From a virus, in IMG/VR virus record IMGVR_UViG_3300030012_002612, positions 1 to 23,094 of that record: a DNA stretch of 23,094 nucleotides, one strand, 5' to 3'. Both the position numbers and the translations under genes were made by a program. Below, piece after piece: positions 9,408 to 23,094 of the stretch (position 1 is its first letter; the number at the start of each line of letters is the position of its first letter). The notes under the pieces were generated by a model. It did no database searches and was not told the DNA's origin. It saw only the letters and a program-made list of their open reading frames with translations.

Positions 9408-9642
9408 ACTCTTTGTCGTTATTCACTAACTTAAGTATGTCCGCCATATCATCATTACCAAACTCTTGTCTGTATTTTGATAACACTTGCAGTAATTCCA
9501 TAAACGTACGTGGTGACGCTTTCCAGTCTTCTGCTTCATTGTTCTTCACTGCCATCAGCATAATGTTTTTAACGATACCTTCAAAGTCTCCTTCATTGAT
9601 ACACTTCTTTAATCGTTGTTTATATCCTGTATTTGTACTCAT
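9406..9642 (-). CDS. Small helical protein, candidate small terminase subunit
   Basis: This is a 78-residue protein (MSTNTGYKQRLKKCINEGDF) with SD TAGGAG, overlapping the preceding gene by 4 bp. It looks all-helical with a basic N-terminus and an acidic C-terminus (DDMADILKLVNNDKE). The middle (ASPRTFMELLQVLSKYRQEF) could be an oligomerisation helix pair. It lies directly upstream of the large terminase, the usual place for the small subunit that recognises the packaging site. It is shorter than usual for that family and I see no clear helix-turn-helix. The 123-residue gene upstream is an equally possible candidate. Confidence 0.5.
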   Translation of the reverse strand: MSTNTGYKQRLKKCINEGDFEGIVKNIMLMAVKNNEAEDWKASPRTFMELLQVLSKYRQEFGNDDMADILKLVNNDKE

Positions 9643-10010
9643 TTTTTTACTCCTAGTATTTTTTGTAGACGTTGTATTGCTTGATTTTTCTTTTTGAATA
9701 CAGTACTCACAACAACGCCTAATTCATCGGCGCAGTATTGTAAAGTTTGTCCTTCAATAAAATACCACCATATAATCTTTTGTTCATCATCAGGCAATGA
9801 GGGTAGTGCTTCGTGTATCTCCCCCATATAATCCCTCTTTTCTTCACCAGTAATACCGTCTAACTCATCTTCAATACTTTGAGTAGGGTCGTAAGACATA
9901 CCACGCTTCTGTGCTATCCACTCAAACAGTGATGAGTCACCTGTCGACCAATGCTTACGATACCAGCGTCTGTCAAGTTGTTTCTGTGTTTTAATCTTGC
10001 CCTTCGACAT
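9639..10010 (-). CDS. Sigma-region-4-like helix-turn-helix protein
   Basis: This is a 123-residue basic protein. The C-terminal ~55 residues (LPDDEQKIIWWYFIEGQTLQ, then YCADELGVVVSTVFKKKNQA and IQRLQKIL) match the logic of sigma70 region 4: a 'YFIEGQTL..iA..LGVs.sTV....+.A...L' helix-turn-helix. The N-terminal part (RWYRKHWSTGDSSLFEWIAQ) is unlike a full sigma factor, so it is not a complete sigma. It is probably a DNA-binding regulator, or it supplies the DNA-recognition function of a small terminase. Its start overlaps the end of another helix-turn-helix-like gene (9991-10263). The fold call is moderately sure and the role is open. Confidence 0.6.
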   Translation of the reverse strand: MSKGKIKTQKQLDRRWYRKHWSTGDSSLFEWIAQKRGMSYDPTQSIEDELDGITGEEKRDYMGEIHEALPSLPDDEQKIIWWYFIEGQTLQYCADELGVVVSTVFKKKNQAIQRLQKILGVKK

Positions 10011-10263
10011 CCATACCTCTCCTTATCTTTTTCATTGCGGTACGTATATAACCCTGTACAGCAGATTTACTTACTCTTGTAGGCGTAAGTCCTTCGTGGT
10101 ATATTATCTCAGCGATTTGTTCAAGAGTATGATGGTATTGGTTTTTCCAGTTCTCACACTTCTCTCCCTCAAAAAATTGTTTGTCCATACCCGGTTTCCA
10201 ACCCTTGTCTCTGAGTTCTTTGAGTTTTGCATTGGCTGCTGTAAGATTATAGTTGCGTTTCAT
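9991..10263 (-). CDS. Second sigma-region-4-like helix-turn-helix protein
   Basis: This is a 90-residue basic protein starting MKRNYNLTAANAKLKELRDK. Its start overlaps the RusA-like gene's stop (TAATG). The C-terminal half (TLEQIAEIIYHEGLTPTRVS, then KSAVQGYIRTAMKKIRR) has the helix-turn-helix pattern of sigma region 4, including the 'TLEqIAeii' helix and a final 'A+KKIRR' helix like the 'ALRKLR' ending of sigma factors. Together with the next gene it forms a tandem pair of small DNA-binding proteins just before terminase. It could be a late-gene regulator or a packaging accessory protein. No function is established. Confidence 0.55.
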   Translation of the reverse strand: MKRNYNLTAANAKLKELRDKGWKPGMDKQFFEGEKCENWKNQYHHTLEQIAEIIYHEGLTPTRVSKSAVQGYIRTAMKKIRRGMDVEGQD

Positions 10264-10643
10264 TATTCAGTCTCCAGTCTAATGTTGAACTGCCAAGTGT
10301 CTTTATCATAATGCTTCTGAGCGGCTATTCTACGCACTTGACAATCATCGTCGTATAAAACCCCATTGAGACTATCACAGACACTTCCAAAGATGTTCTG
10401 GACGTCTCTACGGCGTCTGTCACCGTATACTACTTCTACCTTCAAATAATACTCTGCGTTCATAGGCCAAGCCCTACCCATATCAACTTCCCACTCTCTC
10501 TTCTTTTCCATTGCTAAGTCTGCTAAGTATTCTTCAAATGCTCTGATGTCGTGTGGTTTGTACATCTTCTTTGTTTTCGAATTAAACTTCATCGAATTTT
10601 TTTTAGCGGGTATTTTCATAAACCCGTCAAACTCTATCAACAT
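10263..10643 (-). CDS. rusA-like: RusA-like Holliday junction resolvase
   Basis: This is a 126-residue protein, matching the usual RusA length of about 120. The start MLIEFDGFMKIPAKKNSM agrees with the RusA N-terminal 'G.P.pK.R' strand. The family signature is clear: RRRRDVQNIFGSVCDSLNGV (76-95) followed by YDDDCQV (97-103). RusA homodimers cut four-way DNA junctions, and in phages they resolve branched replication products before packaging, which fits the site just upstream of terminase. The catalytic motif is usually D-x-D-N. Here it reads D80-V-Q82-N83, so one of the expected aspartates appears to be glutamine. The gene overlaps the preceding gene by 7 bp. Confidence 0.8.
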   Translation of the reverse strand: MLIEFDGFMKIPAKKNSMKFNSKTKKMYKPHDIRAFEEYLADLAMEKKREWEVDMGRAWPMNAEYYLKVEVVYGDRRRRDVQNIFGSVCDSLNGVLYDDDCQVRRIAAQKHYDKDTWQFNIRLETE

Positions 10644-12184: not shown

Positions 12185-12317
12185 CCATATCGAGATGTTT
12201 TTTCTAACCCATACCCAAGACAGACGTGTCCTGAGGTGGCAGGAGAGCAGTATATCGATACTCGAACGCGATTTATTTCGAAAAAAATACAAAAAAGATT
12301 TACACTTTTACACTTAA
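12168..12317 (+). CDS. Possible 49-residue small protein in the second early leader
   Basis: The frame starts at ATG 12168, 9 nt after AAGGG, and ends at TAA 12317. It encodes a short aromatic then basic peptide (MITLTSHIEMFFLTHTQDRR, ending FRKKYKKDLHFYT). It sits in the 309-bp gap between two early genes, downstream of a phage-type promoter motif, and its last codons overlap the next sigma70-type promoter. Its SD and start lie in a predicted hairpin. Nothing is recognisable and it may be chance. Apart from this frame the gap holds only regulatory sites. Confidence 0.3.
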   Translation: MITLTSHIEMFFLTHTQDRRVLRWQESSISILERDLFRKKYKKDLHFYT

Positions 12318-12326
12318 GGGTATAAT
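12299..12326 (+). promoter_or_regulatory. Sigma70-type early promoter 3
   Basis: TTTACA (12299-12304), 16-nt spacer, TATAAT (12321-12326), with GGG before and TATATA after the -10 box. Predicted start is near 12333, leaving a leader of about 66 nt before ATG 12399. Confidence 0.7.
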
Positions 12327-12398: not shown

Positions 12399-12776
12399 AT
12401 GTCAATCAAAGATATAAACGACAAACTGATGAAGGCAGGATTTATTCCTTCAATAATAAACGAACTCACCAACGACGAACTCGAAGAGATGCTAAAAGAC
12501 TCAATCATTGAGATGTGGGAAGGTAATCGATACCTCGTGCAACGGGTGACCAAACACAAGCCGGTCACAAATAATCCCAAACGATATGGTCCTGCATTTA
12601 TGTGGATGAGCTGTATCGACCTCAACTCGTGTGAGAAGGTCAGACTGCGAGTCCGATACGATAGACTTCCATCAAAGAACACACCCCAAAATTGGTCCAT
12701 CAACGAGTGGGTAGACAAGTCCATTTGGAAAGTGGGTGAACAAAGACTTTATGTAAAGGAGTGGTCAAATGCTTAA
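12399..12776 (+). CDS. Early protein of unknown function
   Basis: This is a 125-residue protein starting MSIKDINDKLMKAGFIPSII with SD CAGGAGA. The N-terminal ~45 residues look helical (NELTNDELEEMLKDSIIEMW). The remainder looks mainly beta, with many Trp and Arg (AFMWMSCIDLNSCEKVRLRV, then WVDKSIWKVGEQRLYVKEW). I do not recognise it. It has its own sigma70-type promoter and TTCACCACTAAT motif. Its end overlaps the next start by 8 bp, and four genes follow without gaps down to the polymerase-like gene, so it heads that operon. Confidence 0.7.
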   Translation: MSIKDINDKLMKAGFIPSIINELTNDELEEMLKDSIIEMWEGNRYLVQRVTKHKPVTNNPKRYGPAFMWMSCIDLNSCEKVRLRVRYDRLPSKNTPQNWSINEWVDKSIWKVGEQRLYVKEWSNA

Positions 12777-13050
12777 AGGACAACTCATACAAAAATCCAC
12801 AGGTGAGGTGGGCGTCATTATCGACGTCCACGAGACTTGGGTAATCGAACAATACAATACCAACAGCAGAGGTATTTCGAGAGAGCGAGTCAATTATTAT
12901 TGCTCAATACTTTGGGGCGATGAGATGGAAAATACGAGTATATACTATCGACACAACTCTTATCAACTCGACTCAAAGATATATACGATTCGAGTAAAGC
13001 CTGAAGATGTTATGAACTATGATAGATACAGAGTGAAGGTGGTAGCGTGA
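12769..13050 (+). CDS. Small SH3/KOW-like barrel protein, unknown role
   Basis: This is a 93-residue protein starting MLKGQLIQKSTGEVGVIIDV with SD AAGGAG 7 nt upstream. The N-terminal 'kGqLI.kstGEVGVIiDV' followed by VNYYCSILWGDEMENT and a closing strand (IYTIRVKPEDV) has the spacing of small SH3-like or KOW-like beta barrels. These occur in many small phage regulatory proteins. Its stop (TGA) overlaps the GTG start of the next gene. The fold is a guess from pattern, and a role with the adjacent polymerase-like protein is not shown. Confidence 0.65.
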   Translation: MLKGQLIQKSTGEVGVIIDVHETWVIEQYNTNSRGISRERVNYYCSILWGDEMENTSIYYRHNSYQLDSKIYTIRVKPEDVMNYDRYRVKVVA

Positions 13051-13328
13051 AGTGGACTAAACAACTGAAGGGTAGGTGCTTTCATTTTGGCGAGGGTAAA
13101 CACTCAGCGCTTTTCTTAGAAGACTGTGACTCACTCGATGAAGACTCGATATGGCTGACAGATATATTCGTTGATGGATATACCTGCAAGGCTGTTATCA
13201 ACTGGGATAGACTTATTCACAAACGCGAGAAGACTGAGTACAATAGACACGAAGGTCCGTGTATGGTCCAGATGTATATACCAAACTATCAATGGGAAAG
13301 AGGATTTGATGACGTCACACTTATCTAA
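13047..13328 (+). CDS. Small protein of unknown function (GTG start)
   Basis: This is a 93-residue protein whose start codon is GTG inside GTGA, with AAGGTGG upstream. It begins MKWTKQLKGRCFHFGEGKHS, followed by ALFLEDCDSLDEDSIWLTDI and a basic middle (WDRLIHKREKTEYNRHEGP). It looks beta-rich and may be related in fold to the preceding small barrel protein: both open with a 'LKG...G' strand and have a similar length. I do not recognise it. It overlaps the polymerase-like gene by 20 bp. Confidence 0.6.
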   Translation: MKWTKQLKGRCFHFGEGKHSALFLEDCDSLDEDSIWLTDIFVDGYTCKAVINWDRLIHKREKTEYNRHEGPCMVQMYIPNYQWERGFDDVTLI

Positions 13329-14295
13329 ACGCGACTGGATAAAGACTTATATGGGTCGTTATTCAAAGAACAAGGAAGCATTATTCGATGTATACCTCGA
13401 GGTCTATCAGAAGTGGATTAGACGAAGGCGGTCTGACTTTTCATATGCGCCTGTCAAAGACTTGAAGAAGGCTTGTCATCACTACTTCAAATACAAAGAC
13501 CTGTTTGTTGAAGACGACTCAGACTCATATCGTATGGGTGAAGCGTGTAAATGGATACTCAAATGGAATACAGACTTCGAAGACTGGGCTAAACAGTCTA
13601 TGGTCTCTAACGAAACGCCATCGGTTTCTACTCGAAATAAAACTAATCAGTATTCTTTATCTCGGCTGAGACAAATCAAAGGTCTTGATGAGATGGGTGA
13701 GTTGTGGCGACGCAGTGTCATCGCAAATGAGGGTCAATGGACAGACTGGTATGACCGCAAACCATACCGACTGTACACTCAAGGTATGTCTTTACAATAT
13801 GTCAAACGAGAAGACAGACAGCGCATTGTACCTGACTGGCTGGACTATGACTTCAAGAACTGTCATTGGGCTATATTCATACAGACCTTCAACATCGATG
13901 ACGAGTACCGTTTATTCTTACAACAGATGCTCGATGACTCAGACAAGTTTATGAAACAGGTCTGTGATGAGTCAGGTAATGATTACAAGATAATGAAGTC
14001 ACGTCGTAATTCGATACTGTATGGGTCACGTAGTGGTACAGGGTCACCCACACTCAATCGTCTCAGAGACCTACACCAACGTTATCTGAAGGCGTCTGGC
14101 AAAGACGGTACGAAATTATTCTATTCACTCAGTCGGTACGAGTCTATGATGCTCGACATTTGTATACAACACGACCCGAACTGGACACTACTGATGTATG
14201 ATGGATGGATGACAACAGAGCGAGTCGACACGAAACGCCTGCAGGCCCAGATATATAATCAATTAAAAATCAAAATAATAATTACAGAAAAGTAA
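13309..14295 (+). CDS. TV-Pol-like (family A-related) DNA polymerase/primase candidate
   Basis: I take ATG 13309 as the start because AAAGAGGA lies just upstream. A longer frame begins at 13171 but would overlap the previous gene by over 150 bp. The 328-residue product begins MTSHLSKRDWIKTYMG and has an N-terminal basic helical region (residues ~35-45, WIRRRRSDF). Three palm motifs then follow in order. Motif A-like is DYDFKNCHWAIF (179-190, Asp181). Motif B-like is KSRRNSILYG (230-239), with the K-x3-N-x3-YG spacing of family A polymerases. Motif C-like is LLMYDGWMTTE (294-304, Asp298). This arrangement recalls the TV-Pol family described in bacterial mobile elements and Sputnik, proposed to combine primase and polymerase activity. 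No exonuclease domain or helicase is seen. It is the most likely replication enzyme of this phage. Confidence 0.6.
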   Translation: MTSHLSKRDWIKTYMGRYSKNKEALFDVYLEVYQKWIRRRRSDFSYAPVKDLKKACHHYFKYKDLFVEDDSDSYRMGEACKWILKWNTDFEDWAKQSMVSNETPSVSTRNKTNQYSLSRLRQIKGLDEMGELWRRSVIANEGQWTDWYDRKPYRLYTQGMSLQYVKREDRQRIVPDWLDYDFKNCHWAIFIQTFNIDDEYRLFLQQMLDDSDKFMKQVCDESGNDYKIMKSRRNSILYGSRSGTGSPTLNRLRDLHQRYLKASGKDGTKLFYSLSRYESMMLDICIQHDPNWTLLMYDGWMTTERVDTKRLQAQIYNQLKIKIIITEK

Positions 14296-14308
14296 TGAGC
14301 AGTATAAT
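14281..14308 (+). promoter_or_regulatory. Sigma70-type early promoter 4
   Basis: ATTACA (14281-14286), 16-nt spacer, TATAAT (14303-14308), overlapping the end of the polymerase-like gene. The 15 bases from the -10 box (TATAATTATCTATGT) differ at one base from those of the promoter at 15288. Confidence 0.65.
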
Positions 14309-14335: not shown

Positions 14336-14734
14336 ATGACAAAGAAAACTAAATTACAACTACCTTCAATGCGACCAAAGTCTGATGACGACACGAGTAT
14401 ATTCTCAAACAAGATGTGGACTCAGTCGTATGACGAACTAATGAAGAACATTGAGGATGAAGACACTGTTATCGAGATGGTGTCGATAGACGTGGGTGAC
14501 AGAGTGCGTATACAAACTACAAACTTTGACTTCATTTGCACTGTCACAAACATCGATGAAGACTTTAATCTTGTCACGTGTACACACGATGATACAGGTA
14601 CAGAATATATCTGGGATGAGACACCAGACACACGTATTCTGGAGTCTACAAGCAACACAGAAGGCATCTCAAACATTTTTACGATAGTTAACATAGACAA
14701 AATCATAGGAGACGATAATGGGACAGTGGAGTGA
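14336..14734 (+). CDS. Acidic protein with possible SH3-like domain, unknown
   Basis: This is a 132-residue protein starting MTKKTKLQLPSMRPKSDDDT with SD AAGGAGA. A polar N-terminus is followed by a likely small barrel (SIDVGDRVRIQTTNFDFICT, then NLVTCTHDDTGTEYIW) like those of small phage regulatory proteins. The C-terminus (FTIVNIDKIIGDDNGTVE) is acidic. It has its own sigma70-type promoter and overlaps the next, nuclease-like gene by 17 bp. I do not recognise it. Pairing with the nuclease is suggested only by the overlap. Confidence 0.65.
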   Translation: MTKKTKLQLPSMRPKSDDDTSIFSNKMWTQSYDELMKNIEDEDTVIEMVSIDVGDRVRIQTTNFDFICTVTNIDEDFNLVTCTHDDTGTEYIWDETPDTRILESTSNTEGISNIFTIVNIDKIIGDDNGTVE

Positions 14735-15257
14735 CGATGTAAAGTACGGTACGACAATGGAACAACTGGTCTGTAATGAACTCAATGCGCAGATACCACA
14801 TTGGAAAGTAGAAAGTTGGGGTGGTAAAGACCAGCCTGACTTCAAGTGTCAAATCGGATATGGCGAAATCAAATCATACAACGACTGGTACCGTCAACCA
14901 ATGATTGAGTATTCTAATATGACCACTAATAAGAAGTCTGTATGGGTAGACGATACAACAATCAACATTATGGTAGTCAATCACGGTGAGTGGCTACATT
15001 TATACAACGCAAGCAAACTGAGATACTGCTGTGCTGAAGGACACTTCGCGTGGCACTACAAAGAAGTAAAGCAAGGCGAACTCGACCAATGGAAGAAGAT
15101 GAAGTTCCTACACGTGAACAAAGCATCGACACTCAGAGACGCGTCACACAACGAAGACACTGACCCACAACGATGGGACTGTTCTCATATACACGAGAAG
15201 ATAAACCCATACATCACATCGATACGTAAAGACTGGACATCAATTGAAAAAAAATGA
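14718..15257 (+). CDS. PD-(D/E)XK nuclease-like protein
   Basis: This is a 179-residue protein starting MGQWSDDVKYGTTMEQLVCN with SD ATAGGAGA. It has the layout of the PD-(D/E)XK fold: an early helix with Glu15 (TTMEQLVCNEL), then QPDFKC with Pro40-Asp41, then GYGEIKSYNDW with Glu50-Ile-Lys52. The spacing and order (E, PD, ExK) are those of metal-dependent nucleases such as exonucleases, resolvases and restriction-like enzymes. The C-terminal half contains NIMVVNHGEWLHLYNASKL and several Cys/His/Trp residues. In a phage replication block it could recycle host DNA, process replication ends or act as a homing-type enzyme. Substrate is unknown. Confidence 0.65.
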   Translation: MGQWSDDVKYGTTMEQLVCNELNAQIPHWKVESWGGKDQPDFKCQIGYGEIKSYNDWYRQPMIEYSNMTTNKKSVWVDDTTINIMVVNHGEWLHLYNASKLRYCCAEGHFAWHYKEVKQGELDQWKKMKFLHVNKASTLRDASHNEDTDPQRWDCSHIHEKINPYITSIRKDWTSIEKK

Positions 15258-15265
15258 AAATAAAT

Positions 15266-15293
15266 TATACAAAAACGTTTTTTGGGGTATAGT
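15266..15293 (+). promoter_or_regulatory. Sigma70-type promoter 5, driving a short RNA
   Basis: TATACA (15266-15271), 16-nt spacer containing TTTTTTGGGG, TATAGT (15288-15293). No gene lies between it and the terminator 60 bp later. Confidence 0.65.
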
Positions 15294-15299
15294 TATCTA

Positions 15300-15381
15300 T
15301 GTACCAACAAGACATAGTTGGTCTCCTTAAAATTGAAGTTTGAGTTTGTGGGAGAGGGCGAGCCGGTCCTCTCCCCTTTTC
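15300..15381 (+). ncRNA. Candidate small RNA with exposed anti-Shine-Dalgarno sequence
   Basis: The predicted transcript of about 80 nt lies between its own promoter and a terminator and has no reading frame. CCAAC (15304-15308) pairs with GTTGG (15317-15321). AATTGA (15331-15336) pairs with TCAATT (15380-15385) around the terminator stem. Between the two helices TCTCCTTAA (15322-15330) is left unpaired. TCTCCTT is the exact complement of the AAGGAGA SD used by the genes at 11715 and 14336. The RNA could therefore act on phage or host translation. Existence is inferred from the promoter-terminator pair. Confidence 0.5.
15350..15380 (+). terminator. Terminator of the plus-strand early block and small RNA
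   Basis: GGGAGAGG (15350-15357) and CCTCTCCC (15368-15375) form a perfect 8-bp GC-rich stem with a 10-nt loop, followed by CTTTT. Confidence 0.75.
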
Positions 15382-18919: not shown

Positions 18920-18932
18920 ATAGTGGTAAAGT
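18920..18932 (-). promoter_or_regulatory. Phage-type promoter motif before the basic-protein cluster
   Basis: On the minus strand ACTTTACCACTAT is followed by GGAGGATAAC and the micropeptide ATG. It is identical to 12089-12101. If transcription starts at the first G, the leader is only about 10 nt with the SD at its very 5' end. Confidence 0.6.
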
Positions 18933-21900
18933 TATTTCTTCATCTGTTGTGTTTTTTGTTGTAGCCTTCTAATAGTATCCTTAACTTTTCTTATCTCAAC
19001 CTCTTGTTGTTTAGGGATACGCATTGGTCTTTCACGCAAGAACGAATAAAACAGTGGTGTACCTTTCTTGTCATACCCATAATAATAATTTTCAGGTACA
19101 TCAACAATACCCGAGTTTATTGCTTCATTGTAATAATCTGAGTATGTACGATTTATTCCAATAACGTTCAATGCTAATTGGTCTGTAAGAAACTGTAAGT
19201 ATCCAGCATTATCTCTGAAACGATACTGATACCCACCAAATGATGGTGACCCAGCAACGTTCTTTTCAGGTGGTCTGACTTCAATGTTGTATCTGTCAAC
19301 CATATATTCAAACGAAGAACCACCCATACCTAACGTAGCGTGTATATACTGAGGTAAATATCTGTCTTGCATTAACTGTATCATCGCTTGTCTTGGTACA
19401 CTTCGTTTGAAGTCTTTATCCATCGCCAAGAATATATCGATACCCGGAATATATGCTGCTCTTGATAAACCTTGTAGAGCCGTCTCTAACGACCTCTCTG
19501 CGCGTCCTTCAGCTATACCCATACCAAAACCCATCAACTCACCTAACATCATTATATTGGATATATATGGCGACCTAATGTACGTGTATGCGGTCGAACC
19601 TTCCTCATCTGCACTTATCTGTGTCCAAAAACTTTCATACGCTCTGTTGTCATTGAACATCCAAGTCCCTGAATTACGTGCCATATTCCTGTGCCAGTTC
19701 GCTAATGCTGATACTCTCAACAAACCTTTTTGTGTAGTCATTGCTCTCAACATTTCAATACTGGTCGCGTATGTAAACGAGAAGAACAAGAACGCTTTAC
19801 CAAACCCTTCACGGAAAGCGTCAGGTAGCATACCGTAGTCTAACATAACTCTTCGCGCTTGGTCTGCTGCGGTAGCAGGTGATGAACCTTTTCTAATCGC
19901 ATCGATAAATATACGTTCACGAAACGCACGGTCGACTTCATCCGCCCAACGCATCCACTTACTTGTGACGTTTGGATTAAAGTAATTCAGTCCATTGATA
20001 CCTAATCGTTTACCTGATGAGAACATATCTCTGATGTCTTTACTTGAACGCGCTAAGTTTTGTAGGTCATTGACTAACTGGTCACCAATTTGTATTGACT
20101 GAGATGATACACCAAGATTATATTGGTTGAACATATCAAACATCTCACGATTAGTGTATCGAGTACCCGGGTATATGTCCAACGGGTTTGTACTTGCTTT
20201 CAGTCTCAACTGATAATACGGCATTGTACTGCTAGTAAAGGCGCTTCGTGGTACTTGAAGTCCAACACTAATAGTTGTTTTAGGGTTTGTAATGTATGCG
20301 ATGAGAGGAGCAGACAATAAGTTTTCTGCGTGATATACAATGTTCGGTGCGACTTTACCACCCAGCATACCTTGTACTAACATACGTCTCGCTGAGTTCG
20401 CACCAGAAGATATGATACCTCGAGCATATCGACCTGTCTCTGTCTGTCCAAGTTTCATAAAGTTTGATTTGAATATGTCAGCACCTTCAGCCGTATCTAA
20501 CGCTGCTTGTGTTCTTTGATATACCTTTGCTTCTGCTGGTGTTAACAGTTTGAGTTCATCGTCTAACATCAGTGTCATTTTATATCTGAAAGAATTAACA
20601 AGTTCGTTAGGACTGAACAAGTCATCAAACCTTGAACCACTTACACCGCTGATATAGTCTATCATATTCTGTGAAGAACCACCGTCAAACATATCTACAT
20701 ATCGCTCAGCGTCATCGTACCCTTGTAATCTATTAACATATCTTTCATAGTTTGCTTCATATCTTGCTACTCTTGCGTCATACGCATCCATACGTTCTGA
20801 GTACTCAGCAAACCTTTCCATACCTTGAAAATCTGACGGGTCTTCTGGTGGGTCAACACGCTTAGGTTCACGAGGTGGTTTAGGTTGTTTTTGTAATGGT
20901 CGCCGTGGTCTCAACTCAACTGTTGTAAGATTATATTTTCTAACAAGTTCTAACATACCCTCACCACGAGCAATACTAGCGTCTGGTGTAGATATCTTCA
21001 AGTCAAATACATCTTGTACAAACTTTTGGTATCGTGCGGGGTTTGTAAATACTGGAGTATCAAGTGTACCAACTCTCGCCATACTATTTGCAGGGTTGTT
21101 TGACCAAGTCGAAGTAATACCCGGTCGATTTGCAAAGTGTTTTCTCGCAGCATTTGTAATAATACCTTTTGTTTCTTTTGATATAATCATATTTACTAAC
21201 GCGTCAAGTTTATCGATTTTAACGTTGTTCAACTCAGGAAACTGTCTCGCCATATTTTCATATATTTGATTTGCGTCAGCAATACTTATCCTAGAATTAT
21301 TTCTAACGTTCATAAACAAAAAGTCTTGTATCTCTGCTTTTGAACCGAGTGGACCAGCGTATGTAGCGATTATCTCACGCAATACAAGGTCAGCATACGT
21401 ACCTGTTTCATCATCGATTAGTCGTCCCATATCTCGTACGTTATCAAACAACTCAGACTTACTCATTGTCTGTATATCCGAAAATGTTCTACCAGCAAAT
21501 TGGTTTGACATTATTGTGACAAATACTTGTTCTTCTTTACTCATACCTTTGAGTGCTGGAAACAAACCGTCAAACTCACTTTGACTAAACGATTTTGCGA
21601 CTTGTTGAAACGTTGTCTTTGAAGTTCTATCAAGTCTCGCAAACCCTTGGTCTACGTCTGATGTAAAGTTTCGTGTGTCAACTGTATCTGCTTCAAGTTC
21701 ATTAAGCGCTTTTGTTTGTTTTGCTTTCTGTTTTGGTTTTGTACCTTGAAACCTAAGTTTAAGTTCTGTCGCTGTATTTGTTATAGACTTTGCTACAGGT
21801 CTCAACATATCTCTAGTATTACGAAACACCTGAGCAACATCACCACGTCTTATACCTTTTGCTTGGTCAAGTATTGGTGGAGCAGTATCAAAGTCTAACT

Positions 21901-23094
21901 TTGCAATGTCCATCAGTTCTGTATCTTTTACAACTCGTGTAATACCATCACGTGCAAACTCTTCAACCATCCTGTCATTGAAGTATCTGAAGTCGTCAAA
22001 CGTAATGCGCTCACCGTTCTTTGCTTTTTGTAGTATTTGAAAAAAGTATGGGTCGTTTGTATTTACTCTGAAACCATCAATGTCACCAATAGCCCTGTTT
22101 ATTTCATCAAAGTCTAATAACATAGTTTGACCGTCAAGGTCTTCAACAAAACGATTTTCACCGTTAACTGTCATACGATTAGTCACGTCACCAAAGTTAT
22201 CGTCCATCCACTTTTTTGATACAATAGTGCGCGGTGTCAACTGTATATAATCACCAATACCTGCTTTGATTAAGTACTCACGTCCGGGTTGTTTTAACTG
22301 ATAGTATCTTGCCGCTGCTATCTCTGCGATGTTTTGGTATACAAGGTCATCTCTTTCTGGTATTGGTCTACCCATCATCTCCGCATCAAACTCATCTGCT
22401 CGTCCAATGACAGGACCCATACCTTCGCCTGCTATATTTTCAGGGTCTATAGAACCGCCTCGTATATCTTGTGTACGAGATGTCTGACCAAAGTCGTCTA
22501 ACTGTTTGTAGTAATCTATTCGTGATACTTCAGTCACATCTTCAGCAAGGTCATCAGCACTTCGCAATGGTCTGTCTTTTCTACCAAACACAGGTTTGTT
22601 TTGTTTTTGAAACTCTATAATGTCTCGTACAATTGCACTGTCAGATTTTAATCCATCATCTAATAATCTTCTAGCACCGGCTTGGTCAACTGTTGGAAAC
22701 TTAGGATATGGAATAACCTGTCGCAACTCACGACTATTTATCAAGTCATCTGCTGCTGCTTTAGGCATACGTGACCTTATTTCTAGTTCAACTGTCGCAC
22801 CTGCTACTTCATCAACAATACCCTCACCAACTAACGCTTCGCTGTATACTGATGGTGCTTTACCTTGAACCTTTGCAAAGTCACCAGCGACACCTAGTTT
22901 TGCTGCGCTTCGTTTTAAGTATTGATTTTTTAATACCGGTCCCGCAAGGTCTGGTGCTGTACGTCTTACTAACTCAGCAACTGCAAGTCCACTACCACCT
23001 GTCGCAAACACATCAATTGTTGTCGCTCCTGCTTCTGTAATAAAGCGTTGTGCTTTTGGAGACTTTGTCGCAATGCTCGCACCTTTTGCTAACA
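18932..23094 (-). CDS. Giant virion (ejection/internal) protein, partial at N-terminus
   Basis: The frame is open from the right window edge to TAA at 18932, about 1386 codons. A GTG at 23011 lies inside the open frame and is probably not the start. The chain is mostly helical and charged, with no signal peptide. It includes a Pro/Arg-rich linker (RRPLQKQPKPPREPKRVDPP) near the middle, a hydrophobic stretch late in the chain (GFGKAFLFFSFTYATSIEML) and a Gln/Lys-rich C-terminus (TIRRLQQKTQQMKK). Length, position among virion genes and one amphipathic membrane-like stretch fit an internal protein ejected with the DNA, as in T7-like phages. I see no RNA polymerase or lysozyme motif in this part. 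The missing N-terminus could hold an enzyme. Confidence 0.6.
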   Translation of the reverse strand, partial: LAKGASIATKSPKAQRFITEAGATTIDVFATGGSGLAVAELVRRTAPDLAGPVLKNQYLKRSAAKLGVAGDFAKVQGKAPSVYSEALVGEGIVDEVAGATVELEIRSRMPKAAADDLINSRELRQVIPYPKFPTVDQAGARRLLDDGLKSDSAIVRDIIEFQKQNKPVFGRKDRPLRSADDLAEDVTEVSRIDYYKQLDDFGQTSRTQDIRGGSIDPENIAGEGMGPVIGRADEFDAEMMGRPIPERDDLVYQNIAEIAAARYYQLKQPGREYLIKAGIGDYIQLTPRTIVSKKWMDDNFGDVTNRMTVNGENRFVEDLDGQTMLLDFDEINRAIGDIDGFRVNTNDPYFFQILQKAKNGERITFDDFRYFNDRMVEEFARDGITRVVKDTELMDIAKLDFDTAPPILDQAKGIRRGDVAQVFRNTRDMLRPVAKSITNTATELKLRFQGTKPKQKAKQTKALNELEADTVDTRNFTSDVDQGFARLDRTSKTTFQQVAKSFSQSEFDGLFPALKGMSKEEQVFVTIMSNQFAGRTFSDIQTMSKSELFDNVRDMGRLIDDETGTYADLVLREIIATYAGPLGSKAEIQDFLFMNVRNNSRISIADANQIYENMARQFPELNNVKIDKLDALVNMIISKETKGIITNAARKHFANRPGITSTWSNNPANSMARVGTLDTPVFTNPARYQKFVQDVFDLKISTPDASIARGEGMLELVRKYNLTTVELRPRRPLQKQPKPPREPKRVDPPEDPSDFQGMERFAEYSERMDAYDARVARYEANYERYVNRLQGYDDAERYVDMFDGGSSQNMIDYISGVSGSRFDDLFSPNELVNSFRYKMTLMLDDELKLLTPAEAKVYQRTQAALDTAEGADIFKSNFMKLGQTETGRYARGIISSGANSARRMLVQGMLGGKVAPNIVYHAENLLSAPLIAYITNPKTTISVGLQVPRSAFTSSTMPYYQLRLKASTNPLDIYPGTRYTNREMFDMFNQYNLGVSSQSIQIGDQLVNDLQNLARSSKDIRDMFSSGKRLGINGLNYFNPNVTSKWMRWADEVDRAFRERIFIDAIRKGSSPATAADQARRVMLDYGMLPDAFREGFGKAFLFFSFTYATSIEMLRAMTTQKGLLRVSALANWHRNMARNSGTWMFNDNRAYESFWTQISADEEGSTAYTYIRSPYISNIMMLGELMGFGMGIAEGRAERSLETALQGLSRAAYIPGIDIFLAMDKDFKRSVPRQAMIQLMQDRYLPQYIHATLGMGGSSFEYMVDRYNIEVRPPEKNVAGSPSFGGYQYRFRDNAGYLQFLTDQLALNVIGINRTYSDYYNEAINSGIVDVPENYYYGYDKKGTPLFYSFLRERPMRIPKQQEVEIRKVKDTIRRLQQKTQQMKK

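Follow-up and report, generated by a model that had tools for sequence, protein, structure and literature searches.

We conclude that a marine tailed phage carries a stand-alone polymerase of the TV-Pol family, encoded at positions 13309-14295 of the window (the whole stretch of DNA that was analysed, 23,094 bases), an assignment that is well supported by sequence profiles and by a predicted fold. Complete relatives of the phage lack this gene and have no recognizable replication genes. We favor the view, with a probability of roughly 0.6, that the protein is an accessory primase-polymerase that is made early and either primes phage DNA or extends it, leaving the rest of the work to host replication proteins.

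The window is the whole of its source record, a linear fragment with structural genes truncated at both ends. The part that is absent from it, as judged by synteny with complete relatives, is structural. We call the phage marine based on the metagenome contigs from which its relatives come and on the reference phages that were matched. The genes at the two ends are:

3-1115, tail-type protein, cut by the window end
18932-23094 (-), large internal protein, cut by the contig end; approximately 1,800-2,100 aa in relatives; no Pfam match

A 123-aa protein (9639-10010, minus strand) contains a sigma-70 region 4-like domain only, and its gene is near TerL in most relatives. This protein is likely a regulator of late transcription.

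The polymerase gene and its conserved residues

The gene and its motifs are:

13309-14295 (+), stand-alone 328-aa protein of the TV-Pol family (ATG at 13309, stop at 14295), without an exonuclease or helicase domain
13768-13818 (+), hairpin arginine motif RLYTQGMSLQYVKREDR, residues 154-170; R154, Y156, Q163 and R170 are common to TV-Pols in the core alignment with three TV-Pols
13843-13878 (+), motif A DYDFKNCHWAIF, residues 179-190; D181 is a predicted metal aspartate
13984-14025 (+), motif B and fingers helix YKIMKSRRNSILYG, residues 226-239; K230 and G239 are invariant
14035-14067 (+), subfamily signature GTGSxxLNxxR, residues 243-253; invariant in the five homologues and absent from the reference TV-Pols
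14188-14214 (+), motif C LLMYDGWMT, residues 294-302; D298 is a predicted metal aspartate

An earlier note on this DNA had pointed to three motif blocks in order, DYDFKNCHW (residues 179-187), KSRRNSILYG (230-239) and MYDGW (296-300), and to the lack of an exonuclease domain. The three blocks are indeed present in that order and recur in four homologues, and the 328 residues gave no exonuclease domain in sequence searches of Pfam, PHROGs, NCBIfam and PDB. Searched as a single sequence, the protein matched no family in these four collections, and tblastn against 50,697 phage records found nothing.

When 2.9 million viral contigs were scanned and whole records searched with HMMs, homologues emerged in four other viral contigs: L002 (65% identity), L003 (63%), G005 (approximately 39%, on a contig recovered through a TerL scan) and G026 (approximately 37%). 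Scans of genome contigs revealed no cellular relative. The blocks RLYTxxMSxQY, DYDxxNCHW, MKxxRNxxxYG, GTGSxxLNxxR and LxMxDGWM are invariant across the family. R154 in the hairpin, and Y180, D181, C185 and H186 in motif A, are invariant in the five homologues and in three TV-Pols. In motif B, Y238 is present in all of the aligned proteins except that of LMM01, and the motif C of the G026 homologue, like that of the reference TV-Pols, reads HDG. The position of the arginine in the canonical RxxxK is Y226 in the window protein and Y or another residue across the homologues. The arginine is also missing at the aligned position in the reference TV-Pols LMM01, H8N and W9N, and thus does not separate the new family from them. 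D181 and D298 are invariant, and the alignment, predicted strands and fold matches are consistent with an RRM-like palm with two metal-binding aspartates. The gene is under purifying selection, with a dN/dS of approximately 0.1 where dS, which is nearly saturated, could be measured.

Membership in the TV-Pol family

The reference set of TV-Pols consisted of MAP_030 of cyanophage Ma-LMM01, two Polaromonas plasmid proteins and one Calothrix plasmid protein. Ma-LMM01 has been named as a carrier of a TV-Pol element (PMC2579912); the assignment of MAP_030, which adjoins a transposase, as the TV-Pol gene of Ma-LMM01 was made in this analysis. One of the Polaromonas genes has a recombinase in its neighborhood, the other adjoins repA, and the Calothrix gene adjoins a resolvase.

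An HMM of these four proteins, made without any of the query sequences, matched exactly the five polymerase genes (E = 2.2e-9 to 1.2e-8; 6.7e-9 for the window). Over 21 records, its only other match was Ma-LMM01 itself, and it matched 0 of the 15 other related records. When the five-sequence family was compared by hhalign with a profile of Ma-LMM01 and Polaromonas proteins, the probability was 98.5% and the score was 77.6. Since 60 column shuffles scored at most 11.2, this match is beyond chance. Reversed and unrelated-family profiles scored approximately zero, and the probability was still at least 97.5% when any one member was dropped. Against 72,556 plasmids, the window protein alone had one match, the TV-Pol next to repA on Polaromonas pW9NP1 (E = 9e-4). 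The core alignment with three TV-Pols shares R154, Y156, Q163, R170, Y180-D181, C185-H186, K230, G239, E278 and D298-G299.

The family did not align by hhalign to a two-sequence profile of E. coli Pol I and T7 gp5, and known TV-Pols fail likewise. PF00476 (DNA_pol_A) matched nothing in the window at E <= 10, with the 162-kb Ma-LMM01 phage as the positive control. TV-Pols are usually, though not always, linked to a D5 helicase or to a recombinase or transposase. There was no D5_N in 16 related records, and the ORFs that were scanned included no recombinase.

Predicted structure

AlphaFold2 gave a pLDDT of 50.5 with three close homologues and, after two divergent homologues were added (five in total), a pLDDT of 85.9 and a pTM of 0.77. 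The predicted elements fit a palm polymerase. Two strands, 143-151 and 154-158, form the hairpin around R154. Next come the strand of motif A (178-183), the helices of the fingers (198-237), further long helices (247-288), and the motif C hairpin (292-302, with strands 292-296 and 299-302), after which there is a helix and a strand. Helices 88-98, 117-122 and 128-139 are predicted N-terminal to the hairpin and may correspond to the bi-helical thumb of TV-Pols.

Among predicted viral proteins, Foldseek found 17 matches at E <= 0.001 (best E = 2e-10). They include the Zamilon DNA replication protein (E = 2.8e-8), a helicase/primase/polymerase of a Qinghai Lake virophage (E = 9.9e-6) and, from an uncultured marine phage, a putative DNA polymerase I (E = 6e-5), as well as several uncharacterised proteins from uncultured members of the Caudovirales. 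The comparison with virophages is by Foldseek fold matching alone. Nothing in the PDB was significant; the top hits there were family A and B polymerases (best E = 0.013). The best matches by fold came from TV-Pols and DNA polymerases, not from T7-like RNA polymerases. Structure prediction, which the earlier note had proposed as a check, thus yields a palm polymerase layout with fold matches to TV-Pols. Together, the HMM, hhalign with its controls, the core alignment, and AlphaFold2 with Foldseek bear out its suggestion of a compact palm polymerase of the TV-Pol family.

The early region and its promoters

The polymerase gene is the last of four overlapping ORFs that follow a host-type promoter. 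These and other features of the region are:

10263-10643 (-), RusA-type Holliday junction resolvase (Pfam E = 4.8e-14)
12299-12326 (+), host-type promoter TTTACA-N16-TATAAT, 11/12 match, upstream of the polymerase operon
12399-12776 (+), ORF of 125 aa, first of the operon; found only in the window among the contigs compared
12769-13050 (+), small ORF of 93 aa; overlaps its neighbors and is kept beside the polymerase gene in L002 and L003 only
13047-13328 (+), small ORF of 93 aa; overlaps the start of the polymerase gene
14336-14734 (+), group-wide early gene adjoining the polymerase gene (hhalign 93% with homologues in G005, G027 and G029)
14718-15257 (+), PD-(D/E)XK-like nuclease; D41, E50 and K52 are invariant; assigned by residue pattern only, with no Pfam match

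The promoter element recurs at 14281-14308 and 15266-15293, leftward at 11401-11374 (-), and also in L002 and L003. The overall number of promoters in the region is not above that in shuffles (23 vs 18.0, sd 4.5), and the argument from promoters therefore rests on the repeated element, which suggests early expression of the polymerase from a promoter of the host type. Neither the RusA resolvase nor the PD-(D/E)XK-like protein figured in the earlier note. The two small ORFs at 12769-13050 and 13047-13328 are candidate partners of the polymerase. A proposed equivalence of the first of these to a 147-aa protein at the matching place in relatives without the polymerase was unsupported (hhalign 0.02%).

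Relatives without the polymerase

The earlier note had described the polymerase as the only one visible, with no adjacent helicase, primase or SSB. This is true of the window, itself a 23-kb fragment. A search for a conventional polymerase or helicase elsewhere, which the note had named as a refuting finding, found none. The note had gone further and taken the protein to be the apparent replication enzyme of the phage, which would be a distinct replication strategy. This part of the proposal is not supported in that form, in view of five complete relatives of 30.2-32.1 kb (G006, G007, G009, G027 and G029), whose ends overlap themselves by 98-212 bases at 97.8-100% identity, by which they were called complete. 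These five have no TV-Pol homologue, no PolA (family A), no DnaB and no D5 helicase. Among 52 early ORFs (from G006, G009, G027 and G029, plus G005 and G026), the families listed (all 19 Pfam families and 25 of the 50 PHROG families) included sigma-like, methyltransferase, HNH and zinc-binding proteins and no polymerase, primase, helicase or SSB. Because complete relatives lack the polymerase and any recognizable replication gene, the phage backbone most likely replicates on host machinery. Replication proteins of unrecognized families could exist in these phages.

The presence of the polymerase is patchy. On a tree of TerL, portal and capsid, a parsimony reading requires at least three gains or losses of the gene, and the complete G027 and G029, which lack it, fall between G005 and the window clade. 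Identities to the window differ between genes: with G005 they are 42.5% for the polymerase and 68.9% for TerL, and with G026 they are 38.0% and 34.3%. This discordance suggests that the gene has been exchanged horizontally, and unequal rates could contribute to it.

A proposed role in phage replication

We postulate that the polymerase acts on single-stranded phage DNA, with R154 in the hairpin contacting the template, the palm (D181 and D298) and the fingers lysine K230 contributing to synthesis, and short stretches of DNA being laid down or extended. The host would supply the helicase, SSB and bulk synthesis. The priming and polymerase role is proposed by analogy with CCPol, which elongates primers by itself and, when bound to MP, starts DNA de novo from dNTPs (PMC7581432). 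CCPol is the only assayed TV-Pol that we found. Several points weigh against this reading. The priming activity of CCPol requires the small partner MP, and the partner in the window is a candidate only. In addition, Y226 stands in place of the RxxxK arginine, a feature that the family has been said to conserve (PMC2579912), and the PDB matches fall short of significance. More tentatively, and with the odds against it, we suggest that a minimal, helicase-free TV-Pol is acquired recurrently and would allow otherwise polymerase-free 30-kb marine phages to start their own DNA, by de novo priming at a phage origin, before the host replisome takes over. The gene would then be a swappable one-gene replication module.

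The main rival to an accessory primase-polymerase, which we consider unlikely, is a polymerase that fills gaps in recombination and repair, working alongside RusA and the PD-(D/E)XK-like nuclease. The genes for both share the early region with the polymerase gene, and short synthesis can dispense with proofreading. However, G005 yielded no RusA, and G006, G027, G028 and G029 have the nuclease gene but lack the polymerase. Thus, the three genes are not a set that travels together. Precedents among TV-Pols also favor initiation and priming. Less likely than gap filling, and improbable in our view, is that the protein is the sole replicative polymerase and copies the whole genome with a host helicase. 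No second polymerase was found in the five contigs that carry the gene, including the 29-kb G005, as this explanation would predict. However, the enzyme has neither an exonuclease nor a helicase, its presence is patchy, and complete relatives with the same backbone and no recognizable polymerase indicate that the backbone is already replicated by the host. This bare backbone makes an accessory role more likely than that of a sole replicase.

We give little credence to the protein being selfish or non-replicative cargo that takes no part in phage DNA synthesis, for example a counter-defence protein or the remains of a mobile TV-Pol element. Its patchy presence, the signs of exchange, and relatives that manage without it could be explained in this way, but the catalytic residues are invariant down to approximately 37% identity, dN/dS is 0.1, and, unlike in mobile TV-Pol elements, no recombinase or transposase adjoins the gene. 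Least probable by our reckoning is that the protein belongs with the single-subunit RNA polymerases of the T7 type or serves as an RNA primase. TV-Pols have been proposed to lie close to the ancestor shared by family A DNA polymerases and T7-like RNA polymerases (PMC2579912), and H186 in motif A appears from alignment to occupy the position of E710 in E. coli Pol I, but the best profile and fold matches are TV-Pols, the protein has only 328 aa and lacks the promoter-recognition part of an RNA polymerase, the polymerase operons bear host-type promoters, and CCPol primes using dNTPs.

Comparison with known polymerases

The TV-Pol family (Iyer, Abhiman and Aravind 2008), made up of palm polymerases related to family A, includes Sputnik V13, the Ma-LMM01 element, and proteins of bacterial transposons and plasmids (PMC2579912). 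The window protein has in common with it the hairpin arginine, motif A YDxxxCH, motif B K...(Y)G, motif C (H/Y)DG and the lack of an exonuclease, in addition to a significant profile match and fold matches to Zamilon and other virophage proteins. It differs in its size of 328 aa without the insert that plasmid members have between motifs B and C, in having no D5 helicase fusion and no recombinase neighbor, in having YxxxK instead of RxxxK and its own GTGSxxLNxxR signature, and in its place in the early operon of a tailed phage. CCPol-MP of SCCmec (PMC7581432, PMC10061031), likened here by description, is also a polymerase-only, family A-type enzyme of a mobile element with small ORFs adjoining; in contrast, the window has no Cch2-type helicase gene, and its counterpart of MP is a candidate only. 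Family A polymerases (E. coli Pol I, T7 gp5 and Taq) share the motif order and the predicted palm and fingers, with structural matches of low significance, but the window protein has no exonuclease and the sequence profiles fail to align.

Fold matches in BFVD to proteins of uncultured Caudovirales (A0A6J5SM67 and A0A6J5NAK1) and to the putative DNA polymerase I A0A8D9FR19 have E values of 1e-9 to 6e-5; these proteins are 400-509 aa and only 13-15% identical to the window protein. Together with Ma-LMM01, they indicate that TV-Pol-like proteins in tailed phages are not new. What is new is a minimal TV-Pol subfamily, free of helicase and recombinase, and its pattern of presence and absence within one phage group. 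A stand-alone member of 328 residues, in phages whose near relatives have no recognizable polymerase, provides both a minimal TV-Pol and a natural comparison, which can address whether TV-Pols prime DNA, which partner they require, and what a polymerase contributes to host-dependent phage replication.

Other features of the early regions

The promoter element that recurs in the window, L002 and L003 reads approximately (T/A)TTACA-N16-TATA(A/G)TTAT and marks the transcription units of the early region. At 15266-15375 (+), a promoter-like element is followed within approximately 60 nt by a strong terminator hairpin of 10 pairs (15350-15375), and the stretch between them holds no ORF. This unit had no match in Rfam and is possibly a small RNA; its promoter and its location 3' of the nuclease gene are kept in L003 and L002. 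The complete 30-32 kb phages G006, G007, G009, G027 and G029 (L070-L073, L076-L077 and L099-L102) have no recognizable replication proteins, and the early region of several of them encodes small adenine methyltransferases (MT-A70, Dam-like) instead. In G005 (L068/L069), another repeat, TTATAGTTATACACTTA, lies at several sites between genes, for example at 1548(+), 3257(-) and 11312(-) of L068.
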